The notes under the pieces are model-generated. The model did not search any database. It saw only the letters and a program-made list of their open reading frames with translations, and had not been told where the DNA came from. This document shows positions 2-22,881 of a DNA stretch of 24,623 nt, one piece after another. Positions within the stretch are counted from its first letter, which is position 1; each line of letters starts with the position of its first letter. A program made the translations under genes and the position numbers. Source of the DNA: a virus; the IMG/VR virus record IMGVR_UViG_3300017727_000153, positions 1 to 24,623 of that record, one strand, 5' to 3'.

Positions 2-481
2 GATGCTGTATCTACCGATTTAAGATATGGTGGAAATGAAAGAAGTGTTATTGCTGGTGAGTACTATTACTTATATCCATCAGAAGCAACAAGTGTTCAA
101 AAAACACAAACTATCGATGGTATCGTACATGCAGCTAACTTAGTTCAAAAATTAATTCAGAATGTAGTATTAGTACAACCTTCAGAAACTAAATTAAGTA
201 TTTGGAATACGATTAGAGATAATAGAACTTTAATTCAAAAAGAAGTAACTGAATACATTGATTACACATTCCCATTCTTTACATATAATAGAGAAAAGTG
301 TAGAAGAGATGTTGGACACATCTTAGATGGTGTTGCAACCGATTTCTTATGGGGTGGTAATCAACGAAGTATTAAGAGTGGAGAATTTTATTACTTATTC
401 CCATCTGAAGCAACTACCGTACAAAAAGTAGAAACTATTGAGGGTATTGTATATGCTAAGAATTTAGTTAGAGATATAATT
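2..481 (+). repeat. Helical GGN repeat block 1 (two copies, first partial)
   Basis: Starts inside one copy (DAVSTDLRYGGNERS) and holds a second with its Cys at 299 (CRRDVGHILDGVATDFLWGGNQRS). Each copy continues with a YYY(L/F)xPSEAT segment and a TxxGIxxAxxL helix. Confidence 0.85.
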
Positions 482-6400: not shown

Positions 6401-9400
6401 TACAATAATGAATTAGAAATTCTTTCAAAAACCAATAATACTATAACTGTTAACGTAGGAGCGTCTGGACCTAATGTAGAATTTAATCCAACAACTGCAT
6501 CTTATGACCCAGCAACGGGTGAATTCGTAATGACTGTTGAAAGTCATAGTTTAAGTATTGGTGAAGGTATCATTTTAGATATTGAATCATTTGCTTTCAC
6601 TTGTGATATGGATAATAATCAATCAGTTAAATCATATCCAAGAGTTGGTATTGACCCATTCGCTGGACGTTCAATGAAGATAACGGATATTACTGATACT
6701 ACAATGACTGTAAATGTTGGTATTTCGGGTCCAAATAAATTCTTTACACCATCGGATGTTGATTACAACGCATTAAGTGGTGATATGATTGTAACTGTTG
6801 GACAGCATGGTATAGGTGTTGGTAGAAGTGTAGTATTAGAAAATGAATCATTCGCATTTACTTGTGACCAAGATGGTGATACATCTGTTCATTCTTATCC
6901 AAGAAGTGGTTCTGACCCATACGCTGAACAATCAATAGTTATTACTTCAGTTGGAACTACATCACATACTGTAACTGATGCTCCTTATAACGCATCAACT
7001 GGTGATGTTACTATAACAATAGCTAATCATAATTTTAGTAATGGTGATTATATCAAATTAGATAATAATTCTCTAACTTATACTTGTGTATTGGATGGTG
7101 ATACTGTTGAAAAATCATATCCAAGAGCTGGAATAGATTATCCAAATGGAAGATGGTTAGAAATTTCTAATGTAACTACAAATACGTTTGATATAAACAT
7201 AGGTTCTTCCTCATATACAAACACACATACATTTGTATCGGCTACAAATGATGGATTAGAAAGACAAACTGGTACATTTACAATAAATGTAGGAGATGGT
7301 GGAAGTGCTTCTGGTTCGGTACACACATTTGTATCTGCATCAACAAACGCTGTAAAACATCTACCTCAATCAGTTCACACATTCGTATCAGCATCAAATG
7401 GAGCAATTAAACATTTACCACAATCAGTTCACACATTTGTTAGAACTGAGCAAAATTCAGTAAGTGTTGTTCAACCTGCATTTGAATATGGTTCATTATT
7501 AACTGGTTCTGATATTCTAACTACATATGGATTGATTACTGAAAGTGTACCATTTATACAAAATGAAGTTGTAGAATATATTTCTTCTTCGTGGATAGGA
7601 TTTGATTATGATGATGTTAAGTGTAGAAGAGATGTTGGATTTATTGTAAATGGTGTAGCAGAAGATTTAAGATATGGAATCGTATCTCAATCAGTAGTAA
7701 ACGCTAAGTTCTACTATCAATTCCCATCTGAAGCTAATGGAACTGGTTCTCAAGCTCAACAAACTATTGATGGTATCAATTACGCATCACAATTAACTGA
7801 ACAAATCGTTAAAGGTGTAACATTTGATTTCCCATCAGCTCAAATATCAGCATCAGTTGAATTAATTAGAAATAATAGAGAGTTTATTCAATCTGAATCA
7901 ATTTCTTACCTAAGTTCTTCTTGGGAAGGGTTTGATTATGTAGAAGCAACTTGTATGAGAGATGTTGGACATATTTTAGATGCAGTATCTACTGATTTAC
8001 TTTATGGTGGTAACCAAAGAAGTAAGATTGCAGGAGAATACTACTACAAATATCCTTCATCAGCAACATCAACTCAATTAGAACCAACTACAACGGGTAT
8101 TAAGTACGCGGGTGATGTGGCAAGTAAATTAGTACAAAACGAAATATTCGTAACGGCATCGGCTGAGAGATTAGCTGGAAATAAAGTTCTTTTAGATAAT
8201 AAAGAATTTATTCAGAATGAAGTAATCGCTTACATCTCATCTTCTTGGAGTACATTTGATTACAATGAAGATAAATGTAAGAGAGATACTGGATATATCT
8301 TAAATGGTGTAGCAACGGATTTCTTATATGGTGGAAATGAAAGAGGTAGAGTAAATGGTGAGTACTATTACTTATACCCATCAGATGCAACTGTTAATTA
8401 CCAAACTAATCCAAACGGACAATTAAATCAAACAATTGATGGAATTAACTACTCTGCTAGATTGGCTGAAAAAGTATTAGAAAATACAATATTCGTTTCA
8501 CCAACATCTGAAGTATCTGCATCGGCTGAATTACTAAGAAACAATAGAAGTTTCGTACAAAATGAAACTATCGAATTTATATCATCTTCTTGGAGTAATG
8601 TAACTTACAACGAAGATAAATGTAGAAGAGATACTGGATATATAATTGATGCAGCTGTAACTGATTTAGTTTACGGTGGAAATGAAAGAAGTAGAGTAGC
8701 TGGATTATACTATTGGAGATACCCATCAAGAGCAACTAAGGGTGGTACTCCATCAGAAGCTAATCAGTTAGACCCAACAATTGATGGAATTAGATTTGCT
8801 AATGGAACTTCACAAAATGTAGTTCAAAACTTAGAATACATAAATCCATCAGCTGAAATTAAAAATGGTGTTCAGTTATTAAGAGATAACACAACATTTA
8901 TACAAAAAGAAACAATCGCTTATCTAAGTTCGTCTTGGAGTGAGTTTGAATACAACGAAGTTAGTTGTAGTAGAGATTTAGGATACATCATAGATGCAGT
9001 AGCAACTGATTTAACATATGGTGGTAATGCTAGAGCAGTACAAGCAGGTACATTCTACTACTATATTCCTTCAATCGCAACTACGGAACAAAAACCACAA
9101 ACAACTGATGGTATTGATTTCTCAAAAGGGTTGGCTGAAAAGATAATCAAACAACAACAATTAGTATTCCCATTCTTATTAAATAAAAATGGAGCTAATG
9201 CACTTAGAGCGGAGAAAAAAGTATTACAAGGTAAGGCAATATCGTACACAAATGCGGCATTCCCTACTTTTGATTACAATGAAGAAAAATGTTATAGAGA
9301 TACTGGATTTATTTTAGATGCTATCGCAACTGATATCATCTATGGTGGTAATGAGAGAAGTATCAGAGCGGCTGAATCGTATTACAATGGAGTGTATGGA

Positions 9401-9796
9401 AGTGCAGCTGTTGTTATTAACGAACAAAAGAAAGAAACTGCAGAAACTAATAGATATTTAAGAACTCAATTCCAATTCGCTGCTAGACAAGCGCCTGTTG
9501 AAGAGTTTGGTTCTTTAATTATTACAACTGGACATGATTTCTCTTACGCTGGTGCTGGTGTAACTTATAAAGCATTACCTCCTAACCAAGGTGGTGATGG
9601 TGTACCTGATCCTGATAAGGAAATTACTGAAATTGGTGGAGGTAGAGTATTCTTTACTTCTGGTAACGAACTTGGTGACTTTAGAATTGGTGGAGGTCTT
9701 GTTATTAAACAAGCTTCTGGTACATTAGAGGGTAGAACATTCTCTAAATCGTTATTCTCACTTGTAACACCATTCTCATTAGCACTGCAGGATTAA
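2..9796 (+). CDS. Giant modular virion structural protein, 5' end outside window
   Basis: The frame is open from base 2 to the TAA at 9794-9796, giving 3264 residues with the true start upstream. An ATG at 620 lies inside a conserved repeat and is not the start. Counting from base 2, helical repeats occupy residues 1-163, about 1700-2020 and 2500-3150 (signature CxRDxGxIIDAVATDLxYGGNERS). Four beta-rich units of about 420 residues occupy 164-583, 637-1057, 1161-1581 and 2075-2490. Linkers carry a recurring IKVT...SSS...IVxxIIxNG segment. Residues 3151-3264 form a C-terminal segment (GHDFSYAGAGVTYKALP, GGRVF, GDFRIGGG, EGRTFSKSLFSLVTP) that I recall from very large virion proteins of T4-like cyanophages and their relatives. 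No signal peptide or membrane segment is seen. Inferred role: baseplate or tail-periphery structural or fibre protein. The family match rests on recall, not a search. Confidence 0.85.
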   Translation, partial: DAVSTDLRYGGNERSVIAGEYYYLYPSEATSVQKTQTIDGIVHAANLVQKLIQNVVLVQPSETKLSIWNTIRDNRTLIQKEVTEYIDYTFPFFTYNREKCRRDVGHILDGVATDFLWGGNQRSIKSGEFYYLFPSEATTVQKVETIEGIVYAKNLVRDIITQKTFTPTTATYDPSNGDFVFTISKHGLDVGDEICIRPESFVFTCTMDNNRTEHKLPSIGQPAYNNKLKVKSVTEDTITVDVGKSGPNVEFTPSSASYDPATGEFVITTGNHSLSIGEGIVLDTGSFAFTCDMDNNQSVKSYPRFGIDPFAGRSMIITDVTDTTMTVNVGVSAPNKLFTPTDVDYNALSGDMVVTVGQHGLGVGRSVVLENESFAFTCDQDGDTSVHSYPRLGSDPYAEQSIVINSVGTTSHTITNAPYDASTGDVTITIAGHGFSNGDYIKLSDNSLTYTCILDGNSVEKSYPRPGYDYPSGRWLEISNVTTNTFDINIGSSSYTSAHTFVSATTNGLERQTGTFTINVGDGGSASGSIHTFVSASINAVKHLPQSVHTFVSASNGAVKHLPQAGHTFVRTQNNSISVLSQLITKTPSKVSNSDGNIKVTSFNSVSSSIALSGSYQTEVSESYDIVTGIIKTGIESFTPKTATYDPANGDFLMTVPKHNLHSGDSIYLKPESFVFTCDMDGNRTEHKLPSIGQPAYDNRLTIKSTTSDTITVNVGKSGPNVEYNPSTASYDPATGEFVVTVASHSLSIGEGVVMSPESFAFTCDMDNDQSVKSYPRVGIDPYSVRSLPLTAVTDTTMTFNVGVSGPNKYFTPVSASYNSLSGDMTLTVTESFGLGVGRSVVLENESFAFTCDMDSNVTTHSYPRSGSDPYAEQSIKITSVGTTSHSVTDAPYDSATGDVTITIANHNFNNGDYIKLDDNSLTYTCVLDKNITTKSYPRPNYDYPSGRWLEISNVTTNTFDINIGSSPYVGSHTFVSATTNGLKRQDGTFTINVGDGGSASGSLHTFVSASNRAVKHEPQSVHTFVSASNGALKHLPQSAHTFIRTQRDSVSTLPILTENIEGLIKINDTSQFTSSLSGSEVESAFVTRSVGFINDIIRFGTDDTPFALAKWFDDTLDTPQQLTTGSYVTASGTYVTDTEFGIVSSSFGEIINIIENGTDSFTPTTATYDPSNGNFVVTIPNHTLDIGDEIYIRPESFTFTCTMDGNRTEHKLPSVGQPAYTNKLEITAKTTDTITVNVGASDPDIEWTPTNATYDPANGDFVITTGTHTLSVGEGIVLSTGSFAFTCDMDNNQSTKSYPRFGIDPFAGRSMKLTSVTSNTMTVNVGISGPNKYFTPTTASYDALSGDMTLTVTESFGLGVGRSVVLENESFAFTCDQDGDATTHSYPRSGSDPYAEQSIVITSVGTTSHTPTNAPYNSVTGVVTLTIANHGFSNGDYVKVADNALTYTCVLDDNTTTKSYPRPGYDYPSGRWLEISNVTTNTFNINIGASSYIGEHKFISAAANGIERQTGTFTINVGDGGSASGSLHTFVSASANAVKHEPQSLHTFVSASKGAVKHLPQAGHTFVRTENNSISILPKLVTNAENNIKVTSANQFTSSIVGSSIEINKVNTSVGIIENILQNGLGVKPNVVKNNSDVDNLIKVTDAVQFTSESFGDRLQQRLISSSIAIVTNIVKNGTGSLPTVVEYGAPSESPTTIAAYNLLKENIGFIQSESIAYLSSSWSTASYDESKCSRDIGGIISGAAEDMLYNANSASIFNGKFYYDFPSQAQGAQLQQTLDGINYAGRLAESIVRGYTFQTASAVVSGSYELIRNNREFIQNETIEFLSSSWDGFTYNEITCKRDITHIIDAVSTDLLYGGNERSVNAGDYYYRFPSAAISGGVPNENRQKDPTVTAIDYVQNIVTEIVSGAVFQTASNEVEFVYDTIRENREFLQAETVAFVNAKYPNFEYNELSCSRDTGFIIDAVATDLRYGGNQRALTAGEFYYRFPSEATGNQLDETTDALIYTKDLIEKLVNKETLFVQTGSLNTDNGIKVTSFSPATGSSITDVTIFNTISSSFAIVSDAIANGKADSTPTNATYDPSNGEFVLTIESHSYTEGEGIYLSPESFTFTCDMDNNKTEDKLPSVGQPAYNNELEILSKTNNTITVNVGASGPNVEFNPTTASYDPATGEFVMTVESHSLSIGEGIILDIESFAFTCDMDNNQSVKSYPRVGIDPFAGRSMKITDITDTTMTVNVGISGPNKFFTPSDVDYNALSGDMIVTVGQHGIGVGRSVVLENESFAFTCDQDGDTSVHSYPRSGSDPYAEQSIVITSVGTTSHTVTDAPYNASTGDVTITIANHNFSNGDYIKLDNNSLTYTCVLDGDTVEKSYPRAGIDYPNGRWLEISNVTTNTFDINIGSSSYTNTHTFVSATNDGLERQTGTFTINVGDGGSASGSVHTFVSASTNAVKHLPQSVHTFVSASNGAIKHLPQSVHTFVRTEQNSVSVVQPAFEYGSLLTGSDILTTYGLITESVPFIQNEVVEYISSSWIGFDYDDVKCRRDVGFIVNGVAEDLRYGIVSQSVVNAKFYYQFPSEANGTGSQAQQTIDGINYASQLTEQIVKGVTFDFPSAQISASVELIRNNREFIQSESISYLSSSWEGFDYVEATCMRDVGHILDAVSTDLLYGGNQRSKIAGEYYYKYPSSATSTQLEPTTTGIKYAGDVASKLVQNEIFVTASAERLAGNKVLLDNKEFIQNEVIAYISSSWSTFDYNEDKCKRDTGYILNGVATDFLYGGNERGRVNGEYYYLYPSDATVNYQTNPNGQLNQTIDGINYSARLAEKVLENTIFVSPTSEVSASAELLRNNRSFVQNETIEFISSSWSNVTYNEDKCRRDTGYIIDAAVTDLVYGGNERSRVAGLYYWRYPSRATKGGTPSEANQLDPTIDGIRFANGTSQNVVQNLEYINPSAEIKNGVQLLRDNTTFIQKETIAYLSSSWSEFEYNEVSCSRDLGYIIDAVATDLTYGGNARAVQAGTFYYYIPSIATTEQKPQTTDGIDFSKGLAEKIIKQQQLVFPFLLNKNGANALRAEKKVLQGKAISYTNAAFPTFDYNEEKCYRDTGFILDAIATDIIYGGNERSIRAAESYYNGVYGSAAVVINEQKKETAETNRYLRTQFQFAARQAPVEEFGSLIITTGHDFSYAGAGVTYKALPPNQGGDGVPDPDKEITEIGGGRVFFTSGNELGDFRIGGGLVIKQASGTLEGRTFSKSLFSLVTPFSLALQD
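491..1750 (+). repeat. Beta mega-unit copy 1 (420 aa)
   Basis: Begins TFTPTTATYDPSNG and ends with HTFVRT...SVLSQL. It contains four sub-repeats, each with (F/Y)TCxxDxN: FTCTMDNN, FTCDMDNN, FTCDQDGD and YTCILDGN. The first is followed by HKLPSIGQPAY and the others by SYPR. A tail of HTFVSA repeats about 18 residues apart (HTFVSASxxAVKHLPQ) closes the unit. Confidence 0.9.
1910..3172 (+). repeat. Beta mega-unit copy 2 (421 aa)
   Basis: Same order of four sub-repeats (FTCDMDGN, FTCDMDND, FTCDMDSN, YTCVLDKN) and the same HTFVSA tail as copy 1, ending HTFIRT...STLPIL. It is reached after a linker of about 53 residues containing IKVTSF. Confidence 0.9.
3482..4744 (+). repeat. Beta mega-unit copy 3 (421 aa)
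   Basis: Starts SFTPTTATYDPSNGNF. Sub-repeat loops are FTCTMDGN, FTCDMDNN, FTCDQDGD and YTCVLDDN. Ends HTFVRTENNSISILPKL. It has the same length as copy 2 and is followed by two IKVT linker segments before a helical block. Confidence 0.9.
5090..6070 (+). repeat. Helical GGN repeat block 2 (three copies)
   Basis: Signature cysteines lie at 5201, 5525 and 5870, spaced 324 and 345 bases. Motifs are CSRDIGGIISGAAEDMLYNANS (GGN lost), CKRDITHIIDAVSTDLLYGGNERS and CSRDTGFIIDAVATDLRYGGNQRA. The pattern Fxxx(E/A)xxxxxxSSW before the Cys recurs in the first two copies. Confidence 0.85.
6224..7471 (+). repeat. Beta mega-unit copy 4 (416 aa)
   Basis: Starts STPTNATYDPSNGEF. Loops are FTCDMDNN (followed by KTEDKLPS), FTCDMDNN, FTCDQDGD and YTCVLDGD. 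Ends HTFVRTEQNSVSVV. It is separated from copy 3 by three helical repeats. Confidence 0.9.
7490..9451 (+). repeat. Helical GGN repeat block 3 (six copies)
   Basis: Signature cysteines lie at 7622, 7952, 8276, 8621, 8966 and 9290, spaced 330, 324, 345, 345 and 324 bases (108-115 residues). Each copy has (F/I)xQxExxxxxSSWxxxxYNExxCxRD(T/V/L)G followed by the (D/N)(A/G)VATDLxYGGNxR helix. The first copy has YGIVSQS in place of YGGNxRS. Confidence 0.88.
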
Positions 9797-10722: not shown

Positions 10723-13700
10723 ATGAGCCAATTATTAAGCGGAAAGGTTAAAGTAATAAGGCCCTCCGATGTATCGGAGAATAGATATGAATATCTAAGG
10801 CTGAATGAGGCTGAACCAAACTTAGGTGTACCTGAGAGTGGTTCACTTTCTTCTGGTTCTATTGCTCTTGTTGCTTCTGATGCTGATGGTAATCGTTTAT
10901 TTGTTACAACACTTCAATTAGAGCAAGTTACTGGTTCATTTAGTGGTTCATTTAGTGGAGATGGTTCTGAATTAAATAACCTTCCAGAAGCAGTAAGATT
11001 ATTATCAGGTTCTGCATCAGCATCAATTTCACCAAATACTGGATTCTTAGTAAATGTATCATCATCATTTGATGGTGATGTAGATGTAGATGGTGATGTA
11101 AGAGTTACTGGTGATTTAATTGTTGATAATCGTATTGTAGCTAGAGAATTAATTGTAGAAATTATTTCCTCTTCAGTTATTTTTTCATCTGGTTCAAATA
11201 TCTTTGGTGATGAACTTACTGATAAGCAAGAATTTACAGGTTCAGTTGGAATTACTGGTTCATTAGAAATAAATGGTGATACAAATGTTACTGGAGGATT
11301 TAGTGTAGAAGGAACATCATCTTTATCAGATACTATAATAGTAGGAATAACTGAATTAAGTGGTTCTACATTCGCAAGTGGAACTATTGAATTAAATAGT
11401 GGTTCATTCTTTAGTGGTAGTGGTGAGGGATTATTTAACATTCCAAAATCAGCACTAGCACCTGATGCATTAGTTACTCCAATCATAGCAACTGGTTCAG
11501 TAAGTGCATCTGTTGATGATTCTGGATTCTTTAGAGTATTTGGTAGTAGTTCAGTAACAACTGAATTAAGTGGTTCACTTTTAGTTAGTGGAAATATAGA
11601 ATTAAATAGTGGTTCTTCATTTAGTGGTAGTGGTGAAAATCTTTTTAACATTCCAAGAACTGCACTTACCGATGATGCATTTGATTCATCAAGAATCGTA
11701 ACAGGTTCAGTAACCGCATCTTTAGACCCATCTGGAGTTTTTAAGGTAGAATCAACTGGTTCAGTAAAATCTGAATTTAGTGGTTCAATATTTGTAAGTG
11801 GAGCAGTTCAACTTAATAGTGGTAGTATATTTAGTGGTAGTGGTGCTAATCTTTTCGATATTCCTCGTTCAGCACTTACCGAAGATGCATTAGAAACGAA
11901 TTTAATTATTAGTGGTTCAGTAACTGCTTCCGTATCACCTGATACTGGTTTTGTAGTAAACTCATTAGATAGTGGTTCAACATTTACAGGTTCAATATTT
12001 TTAAGTAGTGGTTCATTTATTTCTGGTAGTGGTGAAAAATTATTTAATGTACCATTAGCAGCACTTTCAGATGATGCTCAAGACGCTGTTGAAGCAGTTC
12101 TTGCTTTTGAAGCTGGTTTATTAGCAACTGGTAGTGTAACTGCATCGGTTTCTGATGCTGATGGATTTGTTGTAAAATCCGAAGCTAGTGGTTCAACATT
12201 TAGTGGTAGTTTAAGATTAAGTAGTGGTAGTATATTTAGTGGTAGTGGTGCAGAGTTATTTGATATACCAAAATCAGCACTTACTGAAGATGCACTTATT
12301 ACAAATAATATTAGAAGTGGTTCAGTAACCGCATCAGTTTCTCCAAACTTTGGATTAGTTGTAGAATCAGAATTAAGTGGTTCTACTTTTACAGGTTCTG
12401 TATTTTTAAGTAGTGGTTCATTCTTTAGTGGTAGTGGTGAACAATTATTCAATATACCAAGAACTGCATTAACGGATGATGCACTTATTTCGAACTTAAT
12501 ATCTACTGGTTCAGTAACCGCATCGGTTTCAACTGATGGTTTCTTTAGAGTACAATCAACGGCTTCAGTAACAACTGAATTAAGTGGTTCGGTATTTGTT
12601 AGTGGTGCAGTTCAATTAAATAGTGGTTCAAAATATAGTGGTAGTGGTGAAGATTTATTTGATATACCATTCTCAGCACTTTCTAATGATGCACAAGAAT
12701 CAATTGAAGCGTTAGTATCGAGAGAAGCAGTTTTTATTGGAACTGGTAGTGTAACTGCTTCAACTGATGATAATGTATTTAGAGTAACCTCAATAGATAG
12801 TGGTTCTATATTTAGTGGTAGTGTTCAATTAAGTAGTGGTAGTGTATTTAGTGGTAGTGGTGCGGAATTATTTGATATACCAAAATCTGCGTTAGTTGAA
12901 GATGCACTAATTTCTAATTTAATCACAACTGGTTCAGTAACCGCATCGGTTTTACCCGATGGTACATTTAAAGTATTCGGAACAGGTTCAGTAAAATCTG
13001 AATTTAGTGGTAGTGTTTCTATAACAGAAACATTAGATGTTCCAAAAATTATAGCTGATGAAATTACTGGTTCATTTAGTGGTTCATTTAGTGGTGATGG
13101 TTCGGATTTAAATAATATCCCTCAATCAGCACTTTCTGAAGATGCTGTTAGAATTGCTAGTGGTTCAGCAACCGCATCTATTTCACCTAACTTAGGATTT
13201 GTAGTAAATACATCAGCTTCTATACAAGGTGATTTAACAATTGATAATGATTTAACTGTTGTTGGTAGAATTACAGCTAACGAAATATTTACTGATTTTA
13301 TTTCATCATCAATAATTTATTCTTCTGGTTCAAATATATTTGGTGATAATACTGGAAGTGATAAACAAACATTATTTGGTGATACTTCTATATTTGGTAA
13401 TTTAACATCAAGTAAATTTATAAGTTCCAGTGGATTTGTTGGGGATGGTAGTGGATTATTTAATATTCCACAATCAGCACTTTCAGAGGATGCACCATTA
13501 ATATCAAGTGGTTCAGTAACCGCATCAGTTTCTCCAAACTTTGGATTTGTAGTAAAATCTGTTGAAAGTGGTTCAATATTTAGTGGCTCTTTATTTGTAA
13601 GTGGAAATGTACAACTTGATGTTAGTTCATCATTTAGTGGTAGTGGTGCTAATTTATTTGATATTCCACAATCTGCACTTTCTGAAGATTCTCCAAGAAT

Positions 13701-16700
13701 ATCAAGTGGTTCAGCAACGGCATCTATTTCTCCAAACTTAGGGTTTGTTGTAAATACATCAGCATCTTTTGATGGTGATATTGATGTAAGTGGAACTGTA
13801 TCTGCATCTATTTTTAGTGGTAGTGGTGAATCTTTATTTAATATACCTCGTTCAGCAATTACAGATGAAGCATTTAGAATTGTAAGTGGTTCAGTAACTG
13901 CATCGGTTCATCCGACTAGAGGATTTGAAGTAAACTCAACTGGTAGATTTGAAGATGATGTAACTATTAGTGGTAGTGTATTTATTTCATCATCAAATCA
14001 AATAAAAGATAATTTAACAAAAATAGTTACTGTTGGTTCAACTGATGATGGTAACAAATATTTTATAGATGGACAAATACATCCAGATTTATATTTAGTA
14101 AGTGGTAGTACATATACATTTGACCAATCAGATACATCAAATGAAACTCACCCATTAAAATTTTCTACAACATTAAATGGTATTCATTCTTCTGGAACTG
14201 AATATACTTCAAGTGTAACTACTGGTAGTATTGATGCTGGAAGTGCAGGTTCTCAAGTTAGTATATTAATAACATCAGAAACACCAACTCAACTTTACTA
14301 CTATTGTTTGAATCATGGTGGTATGGCTGGGTCAGCTGTTATTAATGTTGTTAATGAATTCCCATACTTAGATTCACGAATTGAAGATAATCTAAGAATA
14401 GATGGAACATTAAATGTAACGGAATCAATTACTACTCCAAAGATTATAGCTGATGAATTTAGTGGTTCGTTTAGTGGTAGTGGTAGAGATTTATTTGATA
14501 TTCCATTATCGGCACTTTCCGAAGATGTAATTCAACGAAGTTTTATAGCTAGTGGTTCTTTTACCGCATCAATTGCACCTGATGAGGGATTTGTAGTAAA
14601 TACATCTTCATCTCTTCAAGGTGATGTTGATATATTAGGTGATACTACTATAACTGGTTCTTTAGTAGTTTCATCATCTATTTTATTAGAAAATATACCA
14701 ACAAGTCGTTCAGTAATAATATCAGAAAGTAGGTACTTTATAGATGGTGTTGGTAAAGCAACATTTAAAACTATTAAAGATAACCCTTATTATTTTGATT
14801 TATCAGATAGTTCTAATGCTGGATTTGATTTCAAAATTTCAGAAAATTTAGATGGTACAAATTCTGACAGTGGTTCTCAATACTTTATTAATGTAGTTAG
14901 TAGTAGTGTAAATCCTGGTGCTAATGGAGCTTTCTTAACGATTACCCCATCAGCTAGTGCACCATCACAATTATATTATTACGCAGCACAATCAGAATCA
15001 TATGGTAATGTATTTAATGTATTAGGTACAACTCCAGAAGTAACAACTAACATTCTCAAAGGAGATGTAGATGTAACTGGTAGTTTTGATGTAAGTGAAA
15101 AAATAACAGCTAATAAAATAGAAGCTGATGAAATTAGTGGTTCATTCTCTGGTTCATTTGTAGGGGATGGTTCTCAATTAACAAATGTACAAGCTGATTT
15201 ATCACCTGTAATTGCTAGTGGTTCTGCTACGGCATCGGTTGAGAGTGGAGAATCGTTTGTAGTAACGGCAATAAGTGGTTCAGAATTTAAATCATCTTTA
15301 GATGTAAGTGGTAGTGTATCAATAGGATTCTTAACTGGAAGTAAAAATTTATCAGTAACTGGTTCGGTTGATATTGCTGAATCTGTAAGTGCATCATTCT
15401 TTGTTGGTGATGGTTCTCAATTAACAAATGTACAAGCAGCAGCTGCTCCTCTTATCTCAAGTGGTTCTGCTACGGCATCGGTTGCTAGTGGTGATACATT
15501 TGTAGTAACTGCACCAACTGGTGGAGCAGTATTCACTGGTTCAATTGTAACATCTGGTTCAATAACTGTTGGTGGTGGTGGAGTATTTACTGGTGATGGT
15601 AGTGGTTTAACAAATATTGATATTGCTAATTTATCACTAAACGTAACTCAGTTATCAAGTGGTTCAGCAACTGCATCTTTATCGGAAACTGAATTTAAAG
15701 TATTTAACGAAACCTCATCAATTGCAGTAGATTCATCATTTAGTGGTTCAGTTATTATTTCTGAATCTTTAGATGTTGGTGGTATTATTACTGGTGATGG
15801 TAGTGGGATTACAAACATTGATATTGCTAACTTAGCAATTGATTCATCAAAAATATTTACTGGTTCGGTAACTGCATCAGTTGACCCATTAGGTTTCTTT
15901 AGAGTTGAAAACTTAGATTCAAATATAAACTCAGGTTCAGTTAAAGTAGAAATTAGTGGTTCTCTACATGTTTCTCAATCAATAACAGCATCTTTATATA
16001 AAGGTGATGGTGGTGGATTATTTAATATTCCATTAGATGCACTTGAAGATTTAGAATTAGATAGAATTGTATCTGGTGCTGCTGAAGCAAGAGTAGACCC
16101 TACTGCTGGTTTAATCGTAAATAAACCAATTAGTGGTACATTATTTACTGGTGATGGTGGGGGATTATTTAATATTCCTGCAGAAGCATTAGAAGATTTA
16201 GAATTAAATCTTATCATAAGTGGTGGTATTAGTGCATCGGTTGATAATATAGAAGGGTTTAGGGTATTTTCTCCAACAAGTGGTTCTACTTTTATTGGTA
16301 ATATAGAAATACCATCTGGAAGTGGATTCTTTAGTGGTAGTGGTGAGGGATTATTTAATATTCCTGCTGATGCTATTGAAGGATTAGACCAAAGTAGAAT
16401 ACTTAGTGGTTCTGTAACCGCATCGGTTACTCCTGATGATGGATTCGTAGTTAGGTCAATAGATAGTGGTTCAACATTTTTCGGAGATGTAACCTTCCAA
16501 AACGATGTAAGTGCATCTAAGATAACTGTAACGGATGAAATATTCTCACCAAGAATTACATCATCATTCGTAGGTTCATACCAAGGTGAAAATGTTGGTA
16601 TAGATGTACCTGATGATTTAGATATTTTAGTATTTGATGCAGATGCAAACAAATTTAGACCTGTAACACAATTTGGTGATACTGCTGTATTCCCATTCTC

Positions 16701-19700
16701 AGATGTAACTCAGGTAACATTCCAACACAATTTCGCTATTGATTATCCAGTAGTTCAAATTTATGAAACTGGTTCAAATGGACAGATTATTCCACAAGCA
16801 ATAGAATCAATCGATAGTTCATCGGTTAGAGTAACATTTAGTGGATTGACAAGTGGACAAGCAGTAATTGGTACTGGTGGTAGATTAGCAGGATTTGTAC
16901 AAGGTAGTGATGTAGTAGGTTCAGTATTATCAGCATCATATGCTAGAAACGCTGATTTAGCTCAAACTGCATCAAACTTATTTGGATTCGATTCGGCATC
17001 TCTTGCTGAGATTGCTAATTTAGATAACTATATACAAAATGACCAAACGGCTTCAATGACTGTACTTTCAGCATCATATGCTGAAACTGCTTCATTCGCC
17101 GTAAACGCTGGTGATTTTAATACTGATAACTTTGTAAGAACTGACCAAACGGCATCGATGACTGTACTTTCAGCATCATACGCTCTTTCAGCATCTTATG
17201 CTATAAACGCTGTATCTGCTGAAGATTATGTAAGAAATGACCAAACGGCATCGATGACTGTACTTTCAGCATCTTATGCAGCAACTGCTTCATTCGCTTT
17301 AAATGCTGGTGATTTCTTAGGAGAAAATTTCTTACCAAATACTGGTACTGGTTCATTTGTTGGAAGATTTGAAGTAAGTGGTAGTTTAGTATCATCTGGT
17401 AGTACACAATTTGTAGGATTACAAACTGGTAGTTCAGATACAGTTTTAGTTATTGATGAATCAACTGGAAAAGTTTTCAAAAGAGATGTAACTGCTGTAA
17501 GTGGTACATCTGGTACTGGTGGTACATCGGGTTCTTCTGGTAGTAGTGGTACTACTGGAACGGCTGGTTCATCTGGTTCAAGTGGAACTTCTGGAACTGC
17601 TGGTACAAGTGGTAGTAGTGGAACTGCTGGAACAAGTGGTACTGCTGGTACTTCTGGTTCAAGTGGAACAGGTGGTAGTAGTGGGACAAGTGGTAGTAGT
17701 GGAACCGCTGGAACAAGTGGTAGTAGTGGAACTTCAGGTTCATCTGGTACTTCTGGTTCAAGTGGAAGTAGTGGTACTTCTGGTTCATCGGGTACTTCTG
17801 GAACAAGTGGAACGAGTGGTAGTAGTGGAACTTCAGGAACGTCTGGAACATCTGGTTCTTCCGGCTCAAGTGGTTCTTCTGGAAGTAGTGGTACATCTGG
17901 TACTGCTGGTACATCAGGTTCAACTGGTACATCTGGAACATCAGGTTCGTCTGGAACGAGTGGTACATCTGGTACTGCTGGTAGAGAAGGTGGAGCTTTG
18001 TTCATTGTTAGAACACCAGGTGGAAACAATTATACAATAGATGGATATAGTGGAAACCAACCATCATTAACTCTTGTAAGGGGTGAATTATATTACTTTG
18101 ATGTTTCAAATGTAAGTTCATCACATCCATTTGCATTAAGATTAGAATCTGGTGATAATACAACTGTGCCTGGTACAACAAATAATGATGCAGGAGCTGG
18201 AGTTCATAGTACTTCTACTTTAATAGAATATAGAGTTCCTGAAAATGCTCCTAATAACATATATTACCAATGTAGTGTTCATGGTTCAATGCTTGGAACA
18301 ATAAACATTGTTGATAAATACGGAACATCAGGTACATCTGGTTCAAGTGGAACTTCAGGCTCATCTGGTACGGGAGGTTCTTCTGGAACATCGGGTTCAT
18401 CTGGTTCAAGTGGTATAAGTGGAAGTAGTGGAACTTCGGGTACATCTGGTTCAAGCGGAAGTAGTGGTAGTGGAGGTACATCCGGTTCATCGGGTTCATC
18501 TGGTTCAAGCGGAAGTAGTGGTACAAGCGGAACAAGTGGAAGTTCTGGTACAAGTGGTACAAGCGGAAGTTCTGGTTCAAGTGGTTCTTCTGGAAGTAGT
18601 GGAACAAGCGGAAGTAGTGGAAGTAGTGGTACGAGTGGACAAGAAGGTTCTTCAGGTTCAGCTGGTACTTCTGGTTCATCGGGTACTTCTGGTTCTTCTG
18701 GTTCGACAGGTACTAATGGTACATCAGGTACTTCTGGAACAAGTGGAACAAGTGGAGCAGAAGGTTCATCAGGTTCGGCTGGTACATCTGGAACTTCAGG
18801 TACAAACGGAACATCAGGTTCATCTGGAACAAGTGGAAGTAGTGGTACAAGTGGTACTTCTGGAACAAGCGGAACAACTGGAACTTCTGGAACAAGTGGA
18901 ACGTCTGGTAGTGGAGGTTCAGCAGGTACATCGGGTACATCTGGAACTTCTGGAACAACTGGTTCTGAAGGAACTTCTGGTACATCTGGAACGAGTGGTA
19001 GTAGTGGAACAAGTGGTTCTGATGGAACGAGTGGTAGTAGTGGAACTTCTGGTACATCTGGAACGAGTGGTAGTAGTGGGACAAGTGGTTCAGCAGGTAC
19101 ATCGGGTACATCTGGTTCTAATGGAACAAGTGGTTCAGCTGGTACTTCTGGTACAACTGGTACATCAGGTACATCAGCTGAGGGAAGTAGTGGAACGGCT
19201 GGTACTTCTGGAACAAGCGGAACAACTGGAACTTCAGGTTCAGCAGGAACAAGTGGTACATCTGCTGAAGGAAGTAGTGGTACATCAGGTACATCTGGAA
19301 CAAGTGGAAGTAGTGGTACAAGCGGAACAAGTGGAACATCAGGTTCTTCTGGTACATCCGCAGAGGGAAGTAGTGGAACAAGTGGAACTTCTGGAACAAC
19401 TGGAACAAGCGGAACAACTGGAACAAGTGGTAGTTCTGGTACATCAGCTGAAGGGAGTAGTGGAACATCAGGTACATCAGGTACAAATGGTACTAGCGGA
19501 AGTAGTGGGACAAGTGGTTCGGCAGGTTCGTCTGGTACAAGTGGAACTTCAGGTTCTTCTGGTGTAGATGGAACATTCTTCGGTTCATCTGGTTCAAGTG
19601 GAACCGCAGGTTCATCGGGTACTTCTGGATTAGGAAGTGATGGTACATCTGGAACAACTGGATTAGATGGAACGTTCTTTGGAAGTAGTGGTACTTCTGG

Positions 19701-21480
19701 AACATCTGGAACCAGCGGTAGTAGTGGCTCATCTGGTACTGCTGGCTCTTCAGGTACAACTGGTACATCGGGTATTGATGGAGAAAATGGAGCTAATGGT
19801 ACAAATGGTACTTCGGGTTCATCTGGACAAGATGGAACTAACTTTGGTACTGCTGGAACTTCTGGAACGAGTGGTACAACTGGAACATCAGGTTCTTCTG
19901 GTACAACTGGAACTTCAGGTTCTTCTGGTTTAGATGGAACTAATTTTGGTACGGCTGGTACTTCCGGTACGAGTGGAGCAGGTACATCTGGTACAAGCGG
20001 TGAGAGTGGTAGTAGTGGGACAAGTGGTACAACTGGTACATCAGGTGTTGATGGAACATTCTTCGGTTCATCAGGTACGGCTGGTACTTCTGGTACTTCT
20101 GGTGCTGGAACATCAGGTAGTAGTGGGGTAAGTGGAACGAGTGGAACAAGCGGACAAGATGGAACATTCTTTGGTTCAGCTGGTTCATCTGGAACAACTG
20201 GTACTGGTGGTTCATCTGGCTCATCTGGTACTTCATCAACTGCTGGTACATCGGGTACAACTGGTACTTCAGGTTCTTCTGGACAAGATGGAACATTCTT
20301 TGGAAGTAGTGGTACACATGGTACTTCGGGAACTTCAGGTTCAACAGGTACCGCTGGTACTGCTGGTACTGGAGGTTCATCAGGTACTTCTGGAACAACT
20401 GGTACAAGTGGTATTGATGGAACTTTCTTTGGTTCATCTGGTTCTTCTGGTACGCGTGGTACGAGTGGAGAAAGTGGAACATCTGGTGTAAGTGGAACTG
20501 CTGGTTCATCAGGTACTTCTGGACAAGATGGTACTTTATTCGGAAGTAGTGGTTCAAGCGGTACAAGTGGAATAAGTGGTTCTTCTGGTACGAGTGGAGA
20601 AAGTGGTTCAGCTGGAACATCAGGTACTTCTGGACAAGATGGTACTTTATTTGGAAGTAGTGGTAGTAGTGGTACGAGAGGTACTGCGGGTTCATCGGGT
20701 TCGTCTGGTACTGCATCAACGGCTGGTTCATCTGGAACGGCTGGTACATCTGGTACAAGTGGTTTAGATGGTACTTTATTCGGAAGTAGTGGTAGTAGTG
20801 GAACAGGTGGAACTTCTGGTTCTTCGGGTACATCGGGTATAACTGGAGAGGGTGGTTCATCAGGTTCGTCTGGTACTGCTGGTACATCTGGTTTAGATGG
20901 TACTTTATTTGGAAGTAGTGGTACGAGTGGTACAAGTGGAACTTCTGGTTCATCAGGTGAAACTGGTTCTTCGGGCTCATCTGGTACATCTGGTTCAAGT
21001 GGATTATTAAATGTAGATAATGATGCAGAAGATAGAGTTGTTACTATGGAAGGTGATGGAACTGCAAATGCAGAAGCTAATTTAACATTCAATGGTAATT
21101 TATTAGATGTAACTGGTGATTTAGATGTAAGTGATGCTACATTCTCTACAAGATTCCACGAAAACTACTACGATATAGGTAATTCAAGTGGAACAACAAA
21201 TATAGATTTAACTGAAGGTAACAACTTTAGAATCAATAGAACTGGTAGTATAACAATTTCTCTTTCAAACGCACCAACAGGCCCTCGTGCAATTGGATTT
21301 ACATTGGTGTTGGAAGATGGAAGTGGTGGTACTGCAACTGTAAGTTGGCCTGGTATAATACAATGGGCTAATGGAGCAGCACCAACACTAACAGCAAATG
21401 GAAAAGATATATTAGTATTCTATACTTATGATGGGGGGAGTACATATTATGGATTCCTAAGTGCAAACAATGTAAGTTAA
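10723..21480 (+). CDS. Very long tail fibre with Gly-X-Y shaft and cupredoxin-like insertions
   Basis: 3585 residues; ATG 23 bases after the previous stop, without a clear Shine-Dalgarno. Domains in order: N-terminal segment 1-78 (MSQLLSGKVKVIRPSD...YEYLRLNEAEPNLG), probably the attachment end; about 21 GDGS/GSGxxLFNIP repeats (79-1920); two cupredoxin-like insertions (about 1110-1212 and 1337-1438); a beta domain VTFQHNFAIDYPVVQIYETG...QIIPQ (about 1990-2056); three NDQTASMTVLSASYA repeats (about 2107-2190); a Gly-X-Y shaft (2261-2423 and 2534-3427) interrupted by a third cupredoxin-like domain; and a C-terminal tip with FTLVLEDGSGGTATVSWPGIIQW and FYTYDGGSTYYGF, a type I recall from many marine phage fibres. 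The fibre assignment is strong. Receptor and exact fibre class are unknown. Its module set recurs in the 23614 gene. Confidence 0.88.
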   Translation: MSQLLSGKVKVIRPSDVSENRYEYLRLNEAEPNLGVPESGSLSSGSIALVASDADGNRLFVTTLQLEQVTGSFSGSFSGDGSELNNLPEAVRLLSGSASASISPNTGFLVNVSSSFDGDVDVDGDVRVTGDLIVDNRIVARELIVEIISSSVIFSSGSNIFGDELTDKQEFTGSVGITGSLEINGDTNVTGGFSVEGTSSLSDTIIVGITELSGSTFASGTIELNSGSFFSGSGEGLFNIPKSALAPDALVTPIIATGSVSASVDDSGFFRVFGSSSVTTELSGSLLVSGNIELNSGSSFSGSGENLFNIPRTALTDDAFDSSRIVTGSVTASLDPSGVFKVESTGSVKSEFSGSIFVSGAVQLNSGSIFSGSGANLFDIPRSALTEDALETNLIISGSVTASVSPDTGFVVNSLDSGSTFTGSIFLSSGSFISGSGEKLFNVPLAALSDDAQDAVEAVLAFEAGLLATGSVTASVSDADGFVVKSEASGSTFSGSLRLSSGSIFSGSGAELFDIPKSALTEDALITNNIRSGSVTASVSPNFGLVVESELSGSTFTGSVFLSSGSFFSGSGEQLFNIPRTALTDDALISNLISTGSVTASVSTDGFFRVQSTASVTTELSGSVFVSGAVQLNSGSKYSGSGEDLFDIPFSALSNDAQESIEALVSREAVFIGTGSVTASTDDNVFRVTSIDSGSIFSGSVQLSSGSVFSGSGAELFDIPKSALVEDALISNLITTGSVTASVLPDGTFKVFGTGSVKSEFSGSVSITETLDVPKIIADEITGSFSGSFSGDGSDLNNIPQSALSEDAVRIASGSATASISPNLGFVVNTSASIQGDLTIDNDLTVVGRITANEIFTDFISSSIIYSSGSNIFGDNTGSDKQTLFGDTSIFGNLTSSKFISSSGFVGDGSGLFNIPQSALSEDAPLISSGSVTASVSPNFGFVVKSVESGSIFSGSLFVSGNVQLDVSSSFSGSGANLFDIPQSALSEDSPRISSGSATASISPNLGFVVNTSASFDGDIDVSGTVSASIFSGSGESLFNIPRSAITDEAFRIVSGSVTASVHPTRGFEVNSTGRFEDDVTISGSVFISSSNQIKDNLTKIVTVGSTDDGNKYFIDGQIHPDLYLVSGSTYTFDQSDTSNETHPLKFSTTLNGIHSSGTEYTSSVTTGSIDAGSAGSQVSILITSETPTQLYYYCLNHGGMAGSAVINVVNEFPYLDSRIEDNLRIDGTLNVTESITTPKIIADEFSGSFSGSGRDLFDIPLSALSEDVIQRSFIASGSFTASIAPDEGFVVNTSSSLQGDVDILGDTTITGSLVVSSSILLENIPTSRSVIISESRYFIDGVGKATFKTIKDNPYYFDLSDSSNAGFDFKISENLDGTNSDSGSQYFINVVSSSVNPGANGAFLTITPSASAPSQLYYYAAQSESYGNVFNVLGTTPEVTTNILKGDVDVTGSFDVSEKITANKIEADEISGSFSGSFVGDGSQLTNVQADLSPVIASGSATASVESGESFVVTAISGSEFKSSLDVSGSVSIGFLTGSKNLSVTGSVDIAESVSASFFVGDGSQLTNVQAAAAPLISSGSATASVASGDTFVVTAPTGGAVFTGSIVTSGSITVGGGGVFTGDGSGLTNIDIANLSLNVTQLSSGSATASLSETEFKVFNETSSIAVDSSFSGSVIISESLDVGGIITGDGSGITNIDIANLAIDSSKIFTGSVTASVDPLGFFRVENLDSNINSGSVKVEISGSLHVSQSITASLYKGDGGGLFNIPLDALEDLELDRIVSGAAEARVDPTAGLIVNKPISGTLFTGDGGGLFNIPAEALEDLELNLIISGGISASVDNIEGFRVFSPTSGSTFIGNIEIPSGSGFFSGSGEGLFNIPADAIEGLDQSRILSGSVTASVTPDDGFVVRSIDSGSTFFGDVTFQNDVSASKITVTDEIFSPRITSSFVGSYQGENVGIDVPDDLDILVFDADANKFRPVTQFGDTAVFPFSDVTQVTFQHNFAIDYPVVQIYETGSNGQIIPQAIESIDSSSVRVTFSGLTSGQAVIGTGGRLAGFVQGSDVVGSVLSASYARNADLAQTASNLFGFDSASLAEIANLDNYIQNDQTASMTVLSASYAETASFAVNAGDFNTDNFVRTDQTASMTVLSASYALSASYAINAVSAEDYVRNDQTASMTVLSASYAATASFALNAGDFLGENFLPNTGTGSFVGRFEVSGSLVSSGSTQFVGLQTGSSDTVLVIDESTGKVFKRDVTAVSGTSGTGGTSGSSGSSGTTGTAGSSGSSGTSGTAGTSGSSGTAGTSGTAGTSGSSGTGGSSGTSGSSGTAGTSGSSGTSGSSGTSGSSGSSGTSGSSGTSGTSGTSGSSGTSGTSGTSGSSGSSGSSGSSGTSGTAGTSGSTGTSGTSGSSGTSGTSGTAGREGGALFIVRTPGGNNYTIDGYSGNQPSLTLVRGELYYFDVSNVSSSHPFALRLESGDNTTVPGTTNNDAGAGVHSTSTLIEYRVPENAPNNIYYQCSVHGSMLGTINIVDKYGTSGTSGSSGTSGSSGTGGSSGTSGSSGSSGISGSSGTSGTSGSSGSSGSGGTSGSSGSSGSSGSSGTSGTSGSSGTSGTSGSSGSSGSSGSSGTSGSSGSSGTSGQEGSSGSAGTSGSSGTSGSSGSTGTNGTSGTSGTSGTSGAEGSSGSAGTSGTSGTNGTSGSSGTSGSSGTSGTSGTSGTTGTSGTSGTSGSGGSAGTSGTSGTSGTTGSEGTSGTSGTSGSSGTSGSDGTSGSSGTSGTSGTSGSSGTSGSAGTSGTSGSNGTSGSAGTSGTTGTSGTSAEGSSGTAGTSGTSGTTGTSGSAGTSGTSAEGSSGTSGTSGTSGSSGTSGTSGTSGSSGTSAEGSSGTSGTSGTTGTSGTTGTSGSSGTSAEGSSGTSGTSGTNGTSGSSGTSGSAGSSGTSGTSGSSGVDGTFFGSSGSSGTAGSSGTSGLGSDGTSGTTGLDGTFFGSSGTSGTSGTSGSSGSSGTAGSSGTTGTSGIDGENGANGTNGTSGSSGQDGTNFGTAGTSGTSGTTGTSGSSGTTGTSGSSGLDGTNFGTAGTSGTSGAGTSGTSGESGSSGTSGTTGTSGVDGTFFGSSGTAGTSGTSGAGTSGSSGVSGTSGTSGQDGTFFGSAGSSGTTGTGGSSGSSGTSSTAGTSGTTGTSGSSGQDGTFFGSSGTHGTSGTSGSTGTAGTAGTGGSSGTSGTTGTSGIDGTFFGSSGSSGTRGTSGESGTSGVSGTAGSSGTSGQDGTLFGSSGSSGTSGISGSSGTSGESGSAGTSGTSGQDGTLFGSSGSSGTRGTAGSSGSSGTASTAGSSGTAGTSGTSGLDGTLFGSSGSSGTGGTSGSSGTSGITGEGGSSGSSGTAGTSGLDGTLFGSSGTSGTSGTSGSSGETGSSGSSGTSGSSGLLNVDNDAEDRVVTMEGDGTANAEANLTFNGNLLDVTGDLDVSDATFSTRFHENYYDIGNSSGTTNIDLTEGNNFRINRTGSITISLSNAPTGPRAIGFTLVLEDGSGGTATVSWPGIIQWANGAAPTLTANGKDILVFYTYDGGSTYYGFLSANNVS
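11137..11265 (+). repeat. SGSNIFGD module, copy 1
   Basis: Reads ARELIVEIISSSVIFSSGSNIFGDELTDKQEFTGSVGITGS. The same module recurs at about 13276-13386 in this gene and 24208-24309 in the next fibre gene. It is followed by more SGS-type beta repeats. Confidence 0.75.
13276..13386 (+). repeat. SGSNIFGD module, copy 2
   Basis: Reads ANEIFTDFISSSIIYSSGSNIFGDNTGSDKQTLFGD. It follows a GDLTIDNDLTVVGRIT segment, as copy 1 follows GDLIVDNRIVARE, so a larger block including the preceding NIP repeat was duplicated. Confidence 0.75.
14050..14358 (+). other. Cupredoxin-like domain 1, ligands present
   Basis: About 100 residues inside the fibre: GNKYFIDGQIHPDLYLVSGSTYTF, SNETHPLKF, SSGTEYTSSVTTGSI, then PTQLYYYCLNHGGMAGSAVINV. 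His is at 14149, Cys at 14305, His at 14314 and Met at 14323, forming H...CxxHxxM, as expected for a type 1 copper-like site in the cupredoxin fold. Similar domains are familiar from marine phage proteins. Copper binding is inferred, not shown. Confidence 0.7.
14731..15036 (+). other. Cupredoxin-like domain 2, degenerate
   Basis: Aligns along its length with domain 1: RYFIDGVGKATF...YYFDLSDSSNAGFDFKISENLDG, SGSQYFINVVSSSVNPGANG, APSQLYYYAAQSESYGNVFNV. At the four ligand positions it has Phe, Ala, Ser and Tyr instead of His, Cys, His and Met. The fold appears kept and the metal site lost. Confidence 0.65.
16690..16890 (+). other. Fibre beta domain (HNFxxDYPVVQIYE type)
   Basis: The segment VTFQHNFAIDYPVVQIYETGSNGQIIPQAIESIDSSSVRVTFSGLTSGQAVIGTGG matches, from memory, a small beta domain found in many phage fibres before coiled or collagen-like shafts. 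It marks the change from NIP repeats to SASYA repeats. Confidence 0.6.
17041..17300 (+). repeat. Three DQTASMTVLSASYA repeats
   Basis: Copies start at 17041, 17143 and 17239 (spacing 102 and 96 bases). Each reads DQTASMTVLSASYA followed by (E/L/A)TASFAxNAGDF or SASYAINA. Copies 2 and 3 are identical at DNA level over 35 bases. The alanine-rich SASYAxxASFA pattern may form a trimeric helical segment. Confidence 0.75.
17503..17991 (+). repeat. Collagen-like Gly-X-Y shaft, segment 1
   Basis: About 163 residues of Gly-Thr-Ser, Gly-Ser-Ser and Gly-Thr-Ala triplets in unbroken register, ending GREGG before the third cupredoxin-like domain. No proline is present. Glycine codons are almost all GGT or GGA, while serine uses both AGT and TCN. 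Confidence 0.9.
17992..18321 (+). other. Cupredoxin-like domain 3, ligands present, inside the shaft
   Basis: Reads ALFIVRTPGGNNYTIDGYSGNQPSLTLVRGELYYF, VSSSHPFALRLESG, GVHSTSTLIEYRVPENAPNNIYYQCSVHGSMLGTINIV. His is at 18124, Cys at 18271, His at 18280 and Met at 18289, the same H...CxxHxxM pattern as domain 1. It is flanked directly by Gly-X-Y triplets on both sides. Confidence 0.7.
18322..21003 (+). repeat. Collagen-like Gly-X-Y shaft, segment 2
   Basis: About 894 residues, mostly GTS and GSS triplets, with no proline seen. Three zones are visible: a near-unbroken zone to about 19167; a zone with four GTSAEG breaks (19168, 19255, 19351, 19438); and a zone with twelve GxDGT(F/L/N)FG breaks between 19561 and 20890. 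Two further breaks read GTSSTAG and GTASTAG. Confidence 0.9.
19561..20915 (+). repeat. Twelve GxDGTxFG register-break motifs
   Basis: Starts at 19561, 19660, 19825, 19927, 20044, 20152, 20281, 20410, 20521, 20632, 20761 and 20890. The third residue is always Asp. The aromatic pair is FF in six copies, NF in two and LF in the last four. Each puts one extra residue between glycines (G-T-F-F-G), shifting the triplet register. Confidence 0.85.
21004..21477 (+). other. Fibre C-terminal tip domain
   Basis: LLNVDNDAEDRVVTMEGDGTAN, then DLDVSDATFSTRFHENYYDIG, NFRINRTGSITISLSNAPTGPRAIGFTLVLEDGSGG, WPGIIQWANGAAPTLTANGKDILVFYTYDGGSTYYGF. This end domain is familiar from many marine phage fibres and is the likely surface-contacting tip (inference). 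Confidence 0.7.
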
Positions 21481-22422: not shown

Positions 22423-22881
22423 ATGTATCTAAAAGTATCAGGTTCAACTATAACATATCCATATTCGGTTCAAAATTTAAAAATTGATAATCAGAATACA
22501 AGTTTTCCAACAATTATCACAGATAGTTTATTGGAAACTTTTGGTGTATATAATGTTGAATTAAAAGATAGTGGTTATGACGATGATTACACTAAAGATG
22601 TAGTAGAAGTAACTCCAACTTTATCTGGTTCAGTATATGTACAAACATATGAAATATCAGATGCAGATGAAGCTACAATAAATACAAGAAAAGAAATAAA
22701 GTGGTCTGATATAAGAGATAGTAGAAATACATTATTGAGTAATTCTGATTGGACTCAATTTCAAGATTCACCAATCACAGGTTCTCAACTAACTGATTGG
22801 CAAAATTATAGACAATCTTTAAGAGATGTAACAACACAATCAGACCCTTATAATATTGTATGGCCTACAAAGCCATCTTAA
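22423..22881 (+). CDS. Probable tail fibre assembly chaperone
   Basis: 152 residues, 6 bases after the BspA-like gene. The C-terminal half carries the pattern WSDIRDSRNTLLSNSDWTQFQDSPI, then LTDWQNYRQSLRDV, then DPYNIVWPTKPS. This is characteristic of the phage tail assembly chaperone family (Phage_tail_APC type): RxxRNxLLxxxDW, WxxYRQxLRD and WPxxP. The N-terminal half (YLKVSGSTITYPYSVQNLKIDNQNTSFP...LLETFGVYNV) also fits the usual start of this family. Members help fold or trimerise fibres and normally sit next to the fibre gene, as here. No Shine-Dalgarno is obvious in the AAATAAAATATT leader. The family call is from motif memory, and which fibre it serves is unknown. Confidence 0.8.
   Translation: MYLKVSGSTITYPYSVQNLKIDNQNTSFPTIITDSLLETFGVYNVELKDSGYDDDYTKDVVEVTPTLSGSVYVQTYEISDADEATINTRKEIKWSDIRDSRNTLLSNSDWTQFQDSPITGSQLTDWQNYRQSLRDVTTQSDPYNIVWPTKPS

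Follow-up and report, generated by a model that had tools for sequence, protein, structure and literature searches.

A predicted cupredoxin domain with a type-1-like ligand set, repeated within a giant phage tail-fibre-like protein

Plastocyanin, pseudoazurin and amicyanin are soluble electron carriers, and cupredoxins are familiar as copper proteins, either soluble or enzyme-bound. In this work we analysed a domain, predicted to be a cupredoxin, which occurs with its full ligand set as a repeated part of phage adsorption machinery. PF00127 proteins (plastocyanin/pseudoazurin/amicyanin) share with this domain, named D1 here, the ligand order H...C..H..M and the last-loop position; unlike them, D1 sits in a fibre of 3585 amino acids (aa), has His-Pro at the first ligand and scores below the PF00127 cut-off. 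The closest structural match, the N-terminal cupredoxin of Hyphomicrobium denitrificans nitrite reductase (2dv6), is part of an enzyme, whereas D1 is a fibre module with no catalytic partner seen.

On the phage side, the domain resembles the end of the cyanophage gp9-type baseplate wedge tail fibre connector (PHROG 677). A second complete copy of the domain, D3, matches positions 308–410 of the 412 in this profile (E 1e-21); both D1 and D3 match the last ~100 positions only, not the whole profile, and the rest of ORF 10723–21480, searched in parts, gave no PHROG 677 row. The gp9-type connector is a protein of ~400 aa of the Kyanoviridae, whereas the domain lies here inside the giant fibre of a putative far-T4 phage. 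The accessible part of PMC11705849 describes iron-binding HxH tail fibres, together with a Trojan Horse idea. The T4 gp37 and alterophage fibres treated there carry metal in a tail fibre, as we propose here, but they bind iron via HxH motifs, whereas D1 is a predicted cupredoxin with its site inside one domain (accessible part of PMC11705849). For cyanophage P-SCSP1u, the accessible part of PMC10575957 reports fibre N-termini alone as resolved. Among the papers listed, our literature search found no description of a cupredoxin in phage fibres; it covered few subscription papers and no bioRxiv, and is weak evidence.

Three domain copies in one fibre ORF

The window, that is the whole stretch of DNA analysed, corresponds to an IMG/VR virus record 24,623 bases long. 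A self-search of the window revealed three copies of one domain within ORF 10723–21480, parts of which match PHROG families of tail fibres; D1 is homologous to D2 (E 6.9e-14) and to D3 (E 2.1e-10) of the same ORF.

10723–21480, + strand: giant tail-fibre-like ORF of 3585 aa that holds D1, D2 and D3 (ORF call; parts match PHROG tail-fibre families)
14005–14364, + strand: D1, predicted cupredoxin domain with a complete H/C/H/M set (motif scan, alignment, AlphaFold2, Foldseek, VIA)
14149–14151, + strand: codon of the D1 ligand His 49, domain numbering (motif scan, alignment)
14305–14325, + strand: D1 ligand loop CLNHGGM with Cys 101, His 104 and Met 107 (scan, alignment, AlphaFold2)
14686–15042, + strand: D2, copy with a predicted cupredoxin fold, its four ligand positions changed to F, A, S and Y
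17977–18330, + strand: D3, the other copy with all four ligands, lying between G-x-y repeat arrays
18124–18126, + strand: codon of the D3 ligand His (motif scan)
18271–18291, + strand: D3 ligand loop CSVHGSM (motif scan)

The D1 ligand codons are H 14149–14151, C 14305–14307, H 14314–14316 and M 14323–14325, and D3 has the same pattern, H...CxxHxxM. The initial annotation had pointed to an HPLKF motif and a downstream motif YYYCLNHGGMAG, which indeed lie in frame in this ORF at 14149–14163 and 14296–14331, and the full Cys/His/Met ligand set H...CxxHxxM that it described is present in D1 as His, Cys, His and Met. The interval that it gave, 14050–14358, cuts off the first strand, and 14005–14364 is a better delimitation; D2, in which the site is lost, and D3, in which it is kept, come in addition.

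A search of all six frames of the window for HP or HA with CxxHxxM at most 120 residues further on, and no stop in between, gives just two matches, both in ORF 10723–21480: in D1 at 14080–14325, where the match begins at an earlier HP, and in D3 at 18124–18291. A bare CxxH with M three to five residues on gave five rows, the other three of which are on the – strand, with a stop spanned by two of them. That the D1 motif is beyond chance follows from the homology of the domain to D2, to D3, to 75 IMG/VR loci and to 240 phage records.

An open-ended ORF of 3264 aa at 2–9796 contains many repeats with matches to PHROG 5342 (tail fibre) and PHROG 701 (virion protein); long collagen-like G-x-y (GTS/GSS) repeats flank D3 on both sides (17572–20958), and the PHROG matches just upstream include 'collagen like minor tail'; a likely tail-fibre assembly chaperone gene (PHROG 8716, 4912) lies downstream, at 22423–22881. 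A host electron-carrier gene, that is a plastocyanin-type phage metabolic gene, was considered and rejected on the ground that the domain sits within a fibre-like ORF next to tail genes.

Predicted fold and kinship to copper proteins

The AlphaFold2 model of D1, made on a 54-row alignment (A1) that combines sequences from the window with those of retrieved loci, has a pLDDT of 95.3 and a pTM of 0.88. In this model the last two strands, 96–101 and 113–116, flank Cys101, His104 and Met107, and His49 stands just ahead of strand 51–54; a Cys/His/Met loop between the last two strands is the cupredoxin layout. The type-1 ligand order, His...Cys-His-Met/Gln with the last three before the final strand, is thus found in D1 as modelled. 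That the Cys, the two His and the Met would lie close together, as the initial annotation required, is indicated indirectly by topology and alignment. A Foldseek search of the PDB with D1 gave 1375 matches at E ≤10, three of which reach E ≤0.001, the top one being nitrite reductase 2dv6 (E 3.4e-4, best TMq 0.60). The leading matches are nitrite reductase, pseudoazurin, rusticyanin, AcoP, plastocyanin and laccases, and 44 of the best 50 of the 1375 are cupredoxin folds, as counted by PDB title, with 3cvb a plastocyanin by its name in a separate profile search and with factors V and VIII, which we take to be cupredoxin folds, included. The other six of these 50 are SO1698, titled aspartic peptidase; SO1698 is absent from the best 50 of 998 chains in the VIA comparison of D1, an absence that excludes nothing. 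VIA superposed D1 on the N-terminal domain of 2dv6 with Z 9.7 and an rmsd of 2.5 Å over 101 residues at 20% identity, and its best 50 of 998 chains comprise the nitrite-reductase cupredoxin, small laccases and rusticyanin; Z 8, below which a match may reflect merely a common arrangement, was reached by 135 of the 998. Among predicted viral proteins, 69 match D1 at E ≤0.001, and the named proteins among the best 50 of these are mainly from cyanophages and uncultured phages. We are confident that D1 belongs to the cupredoxin superfamily by its predicted fold; the cupredoxin fold proposed in the initial annotation is thus borne out by the model, whose nearest solved structures are type-1 copper proteins.

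The D2 model, from 31 rows, is poorer than that of D1 (pLDDT 82.3), and its ligand-loop region is a tight turn between strands 95–100 and 103–113. It compares with rusticyanin at Z 8.8 and an rmsd of 2.5 Å over 95 residues, 6 of 998 chains having Z ≥8. D2 is therefore predicted to keep the cupredoxin fold despite the loss of its ligands.

A match to cupredoxin profiles, also anticipated, was found for relatives of D1 above the PF00127 cut-off and, to plastocyanin, for the D3-family profile, but not for D1 alone in Pfam and NCBIfam, where it matched no family, PF00127 (Copper-bind) and TIGR02657 included. With D1 as query, phmmer found no cupredoxin in the PDB, its matches there being antibodies and a hyaluronoglucuronidase, none with E below 0.064, and D3 alone did not reach PF00127 in Pfam, its single row being a sub-threshold At5g54830. 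Among the 54 family members, PF00127 was matched by 5 (best E 4.9e-5), CBM_4_9 by 9 (best E 0.002) and Ig_GEX2_N by 3 (best E 1e-4); the NCBIfam amicyanin model (TIGR02657) was weakly matched by 4 (best E 0.0021), D1 not among them, and the rusticyanin and plastocyanin models by 3 each, the best E values of these three NCBIfam models being 0.0015–0.0021. When 10 members were scanned singly, three passed the PF00127 cut-off of 21.2 bits (24.1, 21.9 and 21.3); they are close relatives of one type (L062, L063 and L064), and Ig_GEX2_N, while below its own cut-off, scores about as well as PF00127 in two of them, and in one better.

The A1 profile gave 10 rows in the PDB, the best of which is an LptD chain (E 0.033); the other nine are copper proteins by name (E 0.11–1.6), none of them significant alone; when the profile is aligned to fern plastocyanin 1kdi (E 0.35), each of the four ligands meets its counterpart. 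With the D3-family profile (A3, nine rows), 12 rows were obtained, all copper proteins by name, led by plastocyanin 1b3i (E 8.9e-4) and nitrite reductase 2vmj (E 0.002), with amicyanins at E 0.76–1.2; CxxHxxM is matched gap-free in 2vmj, and the first His is one position off in 1b3i. A comparison by hhalign shows the families of D1 and D3 to be homologous (probability 98.6, E 1e-15). A profile headed by D2 but made mostly of D1 relatives (A4) found no cupredoxin in the PDB. The CxxHxxM spacing of the ligand loop in D1 and D3 is that of amicyanin; the PDB entry 2ux6 is titled as a pseudoazurin with an engineered amicyanin ligand loop.

Ligand states and distribution of the domain

The pooled loci contain 373 copies of the domain, 263 of them distinct, and the census of ligand states covers the 256 distinct copies of no fewer than 70 aa in which none of the four columns is missing. 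Of these, 230 are HCHM and 3 HCHQ, and in 23 the site is lost: DSDQ in 8, DSSQ in 3, YSNQ in 3, NSSY in 2, and FASY, FTSY, NSSF, HTSF, YSSL, EATL and EGTL in one each. The seven copies left out are cut or without a ligand column; among them, L293 is without at least the Cys (HA--) and a piece of L075 has Tyr for Met (-CHY). The ligand-less D3 relatives (DSDQ/DSSQ) make up 11 distinct copies, those listed being at L258–L268. The copies with Gln for the axial Met (L085, L095 and L123) are in SAR86 and Porticoccaceae records; Gln is the natural axial ligand in stellacyanins.

Some of the searches bear on these counts. The patterns used for the 75 IMG/VR loci contain ligand residues, and such pattern searching favours intact copies; among the patterns of the prokaryote scan and the relatives search, one contains the first His and none contains the Cys, the second His or the Met. 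The relatives search contributed 80 of at least 598 relatives, and the copies from isolates came from a pattern-free tblastn, with 24 records chosen from 240 and 323.

At 60% identity the copies reduce to 56 representatives, of which 45 have four ligands, 2 have three (both HCHQ), 1 has one and 8 have none. All-or-none states thus account for 53 of the 56, against a shuffled mean of 27.2, and this number was reached in 0 of 10000 column shuffles, a test that ignores relatedness. At least 4 changes of site state are required on a tree of 87 rows from whose alignment the ligand columns were left out, although this tree is poorly resolved (support below 80 on 43 of 84 inner branches); the count answers the shuffle test's neglect of relatedness in part only. 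Among the 9 representatives that lack HCH, the four ligand residues are retained in 1 (the first His), 0, 0 and 0 cases, whereas other columns conserved at 0.94–0.96 are kept more often (F in 9, Y in 7, G in 7 and P in 4 of the 9), as is a Pro column of 0.76 conservation (9 of 9). Intact copies are defined by HCH in this comparison, so that those three columns carry no evidence in it; the fourth ligand place is Met in 0.96 of the 47 HCH representatives. Sequences that have given up a metal site but kept the fold would be expected to show this pattern. The four ligands appear to behave as one unit, which argues for a selected metal site without indicating which metal.

In 50,697 phage records, tblastn found D1 in 240 and D3 in 323, mostly Synechococcus and Prochlorococcus phages, with D1 additionally in four records each of Pelagibacter and Methylophilales phages; the count of 75 IMG/VR loci with D1 homologues includes near-identical records. 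The domain is thus common in marine phages, and a copper-type domain on a fibre is not the unusual feature that it had been taken for. In the 24 phage records read, it lies in tail fibres, baseplate connectors, structural and hypothetical proteins, and 26 of the 29 copies are HCHM. In 7 of these records it forms the C-terminal end of a gp9-type connector, with all four ligands present, and in P-SSM7 (L285) and S-MbCM6 (L286) the protein that follows gp9 combines one intact copy with one ligand-less copy, as do D1 and D2. The annotations among the phage matches listed are tail fibre, baseplate, virion structural or hypothetical, never copper protein. A scan of 84,980 prokaryote genomes with two patterns, which finds only pattern matches, gave 61 loci. 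Of eight proteins examined in prokaryote records, one (L091) is plainly from a phage, with a T7 fibre N-terminus; in others the domain stands beside PBP, collagen, cadherin or S8-peptidase domains, and two proteins start with lipoprotein-like signals, as judged by eye. The domain is thus also present in lipoprotein-like surface proteins of marine bacteria. In a marine group II euryarchaeote record, one protein (L100) combines collagen repeats with a copy of the domain at its C-terminus, an arrangement that resembles that of the phage fibre.

All seven related records searched have three copies of the domain in one open frame of 3131–4577 aa, and relatives of 102 kb and 75 kb have a frame of 3585 aa like that of the window, with which they are counted as one orthologue. 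The order intact, lost, intact is found in five of the six distinct orthologues (the window type, G005, G006, G007 and G008), the lost copy of G006 retaining its first His, while all three copies are intact in G009. The ligand-poor D2 is thus a stable part of the fibre and not a recent accident. Between the window and L010, dN/dS is 0.26 for D2 (119 codons) and 0.77 for D1 (120 codons, with few synonymous changes); the D1 value shows no strong constraint there.

The 102-kb relative encodes a T4-type gp23, the nearest homologues of which are from an uncultured phage, Flavobacterium phages immuto and Microcystis phage Mel-JY01 (52–54%), followed by Rhodothermus RM378 (38%), and we take this relative to be putatively far-T4 in kind. 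Neither it nor the 75-kb relative, both fragments, was found to carry psbA, which is present in two other long records with the domain. An assignment to cyanophages was considered and is unsupported, given these fragments without psbA and the mixed phages that have the nearest gp23.

Candidate functions of the domain

We consider it probable, from the sequences and models, that D1 is a cupredoxin with a type-1-like mononuclear site, presumably for copper, and a module of a metal-stabilised fibre. The His-Cys-His-Met set would form this site, with a Cys-His-Met loop of amicyanin length. Free copper is all but absent from the cytoplasm, and the domain would accordingly fold without metal and acquire it on release: the fibre would be assembled metal-free in the cytoplasm, with the Cys reduced, and copper would be taken up at or after lysis. 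The bound metal would stiffen the domain and protect it against unfolding in the extracellular fibre. D3 would be a second copper site and D2 a spacer of the same fold without metal; phage fibres are usually trimeric, and a trimeric fibre would carry six sites. Redox work by the domain is unlikely because no partner is seen. The fold seems to tolerate loss of the site, in D2 and other copies, so copper would not be needed in every copy.

The domain could instead be an ordinary beta-sandwich, derived from a cellular cupredoxin and used for spacing or adhesion, in which the ligands are kept for packing and the virion is metal-free. This would agree with the predicted fold of D2, with the persistence in the family of D2 and 22 other distinct copies without the site, and with the weak Pfam matches of A1 members to CBM_4_9 (9 of 54) and Ig_GEX2_N (3 of 54). 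We nevertheless find it unlikely, because the ligands are lost together, just 3 of 56 representatives having one to three of them, because residues conserved to a like degree mostly remain when the ligands go, and because the fourth place is Met or, in 3 of 233 copies, Gln, the only other state found with HCH in the full census. The ligands might also serve another chemistry, with Zn or another soft metal in the site, or with a reactive Cys that becomes oxidised or bonded upon release. In vitro, Zn and Hg can occupy type-1 sites, and the sequence does not tell which metal is available; yet the Met/Gln in the fourth position and the spacing CxxHxxM are those of copper proteins, which are also the best neighbours by sequence and fold, and make such a use very unlikely.

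Alternatively, the domain may recognise a copper-bearing or copper-transport structure of the host surface, the metal being part of the receptor contact. Its presence in fibres, baseplate connectors and structural proteins of the records read, its occurrence in lipoprotein-like surface proteins of marine bacteria, and the iron precedent of HxH fibres (accessible part of PMC11705849) are in keeping with such a role. But D1 is mid-chain and not terminal, and a domain common to phages of unrelated hosts (cyanobacteria, Pelagibacter and Methylophilales) fits a generic part better, so that we hold receptor contact to be quite unlikely.

If the site of D1 binds copper, it would be a second kind of metal in phage tails besides the known iron sites, and the numbers of marine phages would give it relevance to seawater copper chemistry. 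A broader idea, possible but doubtful, is that type-1 copper sites are virion parts of marine tailed phages, loaded on release to lock the fibre in its infectious form, and that the particles act as a seawater copper ligand; it would parallel, for copper, what has been proposed with iron for HxH fibres. The ligand-less copies provide built-in controls on the role of the metal. The 102-kb relative has a further copy of the domain (L307, G001:C1:69200-69700) in a different giant frame, of 3362 aa; this copy ends in WYYCENHVGMG and has a longer stretch ahead of that end.
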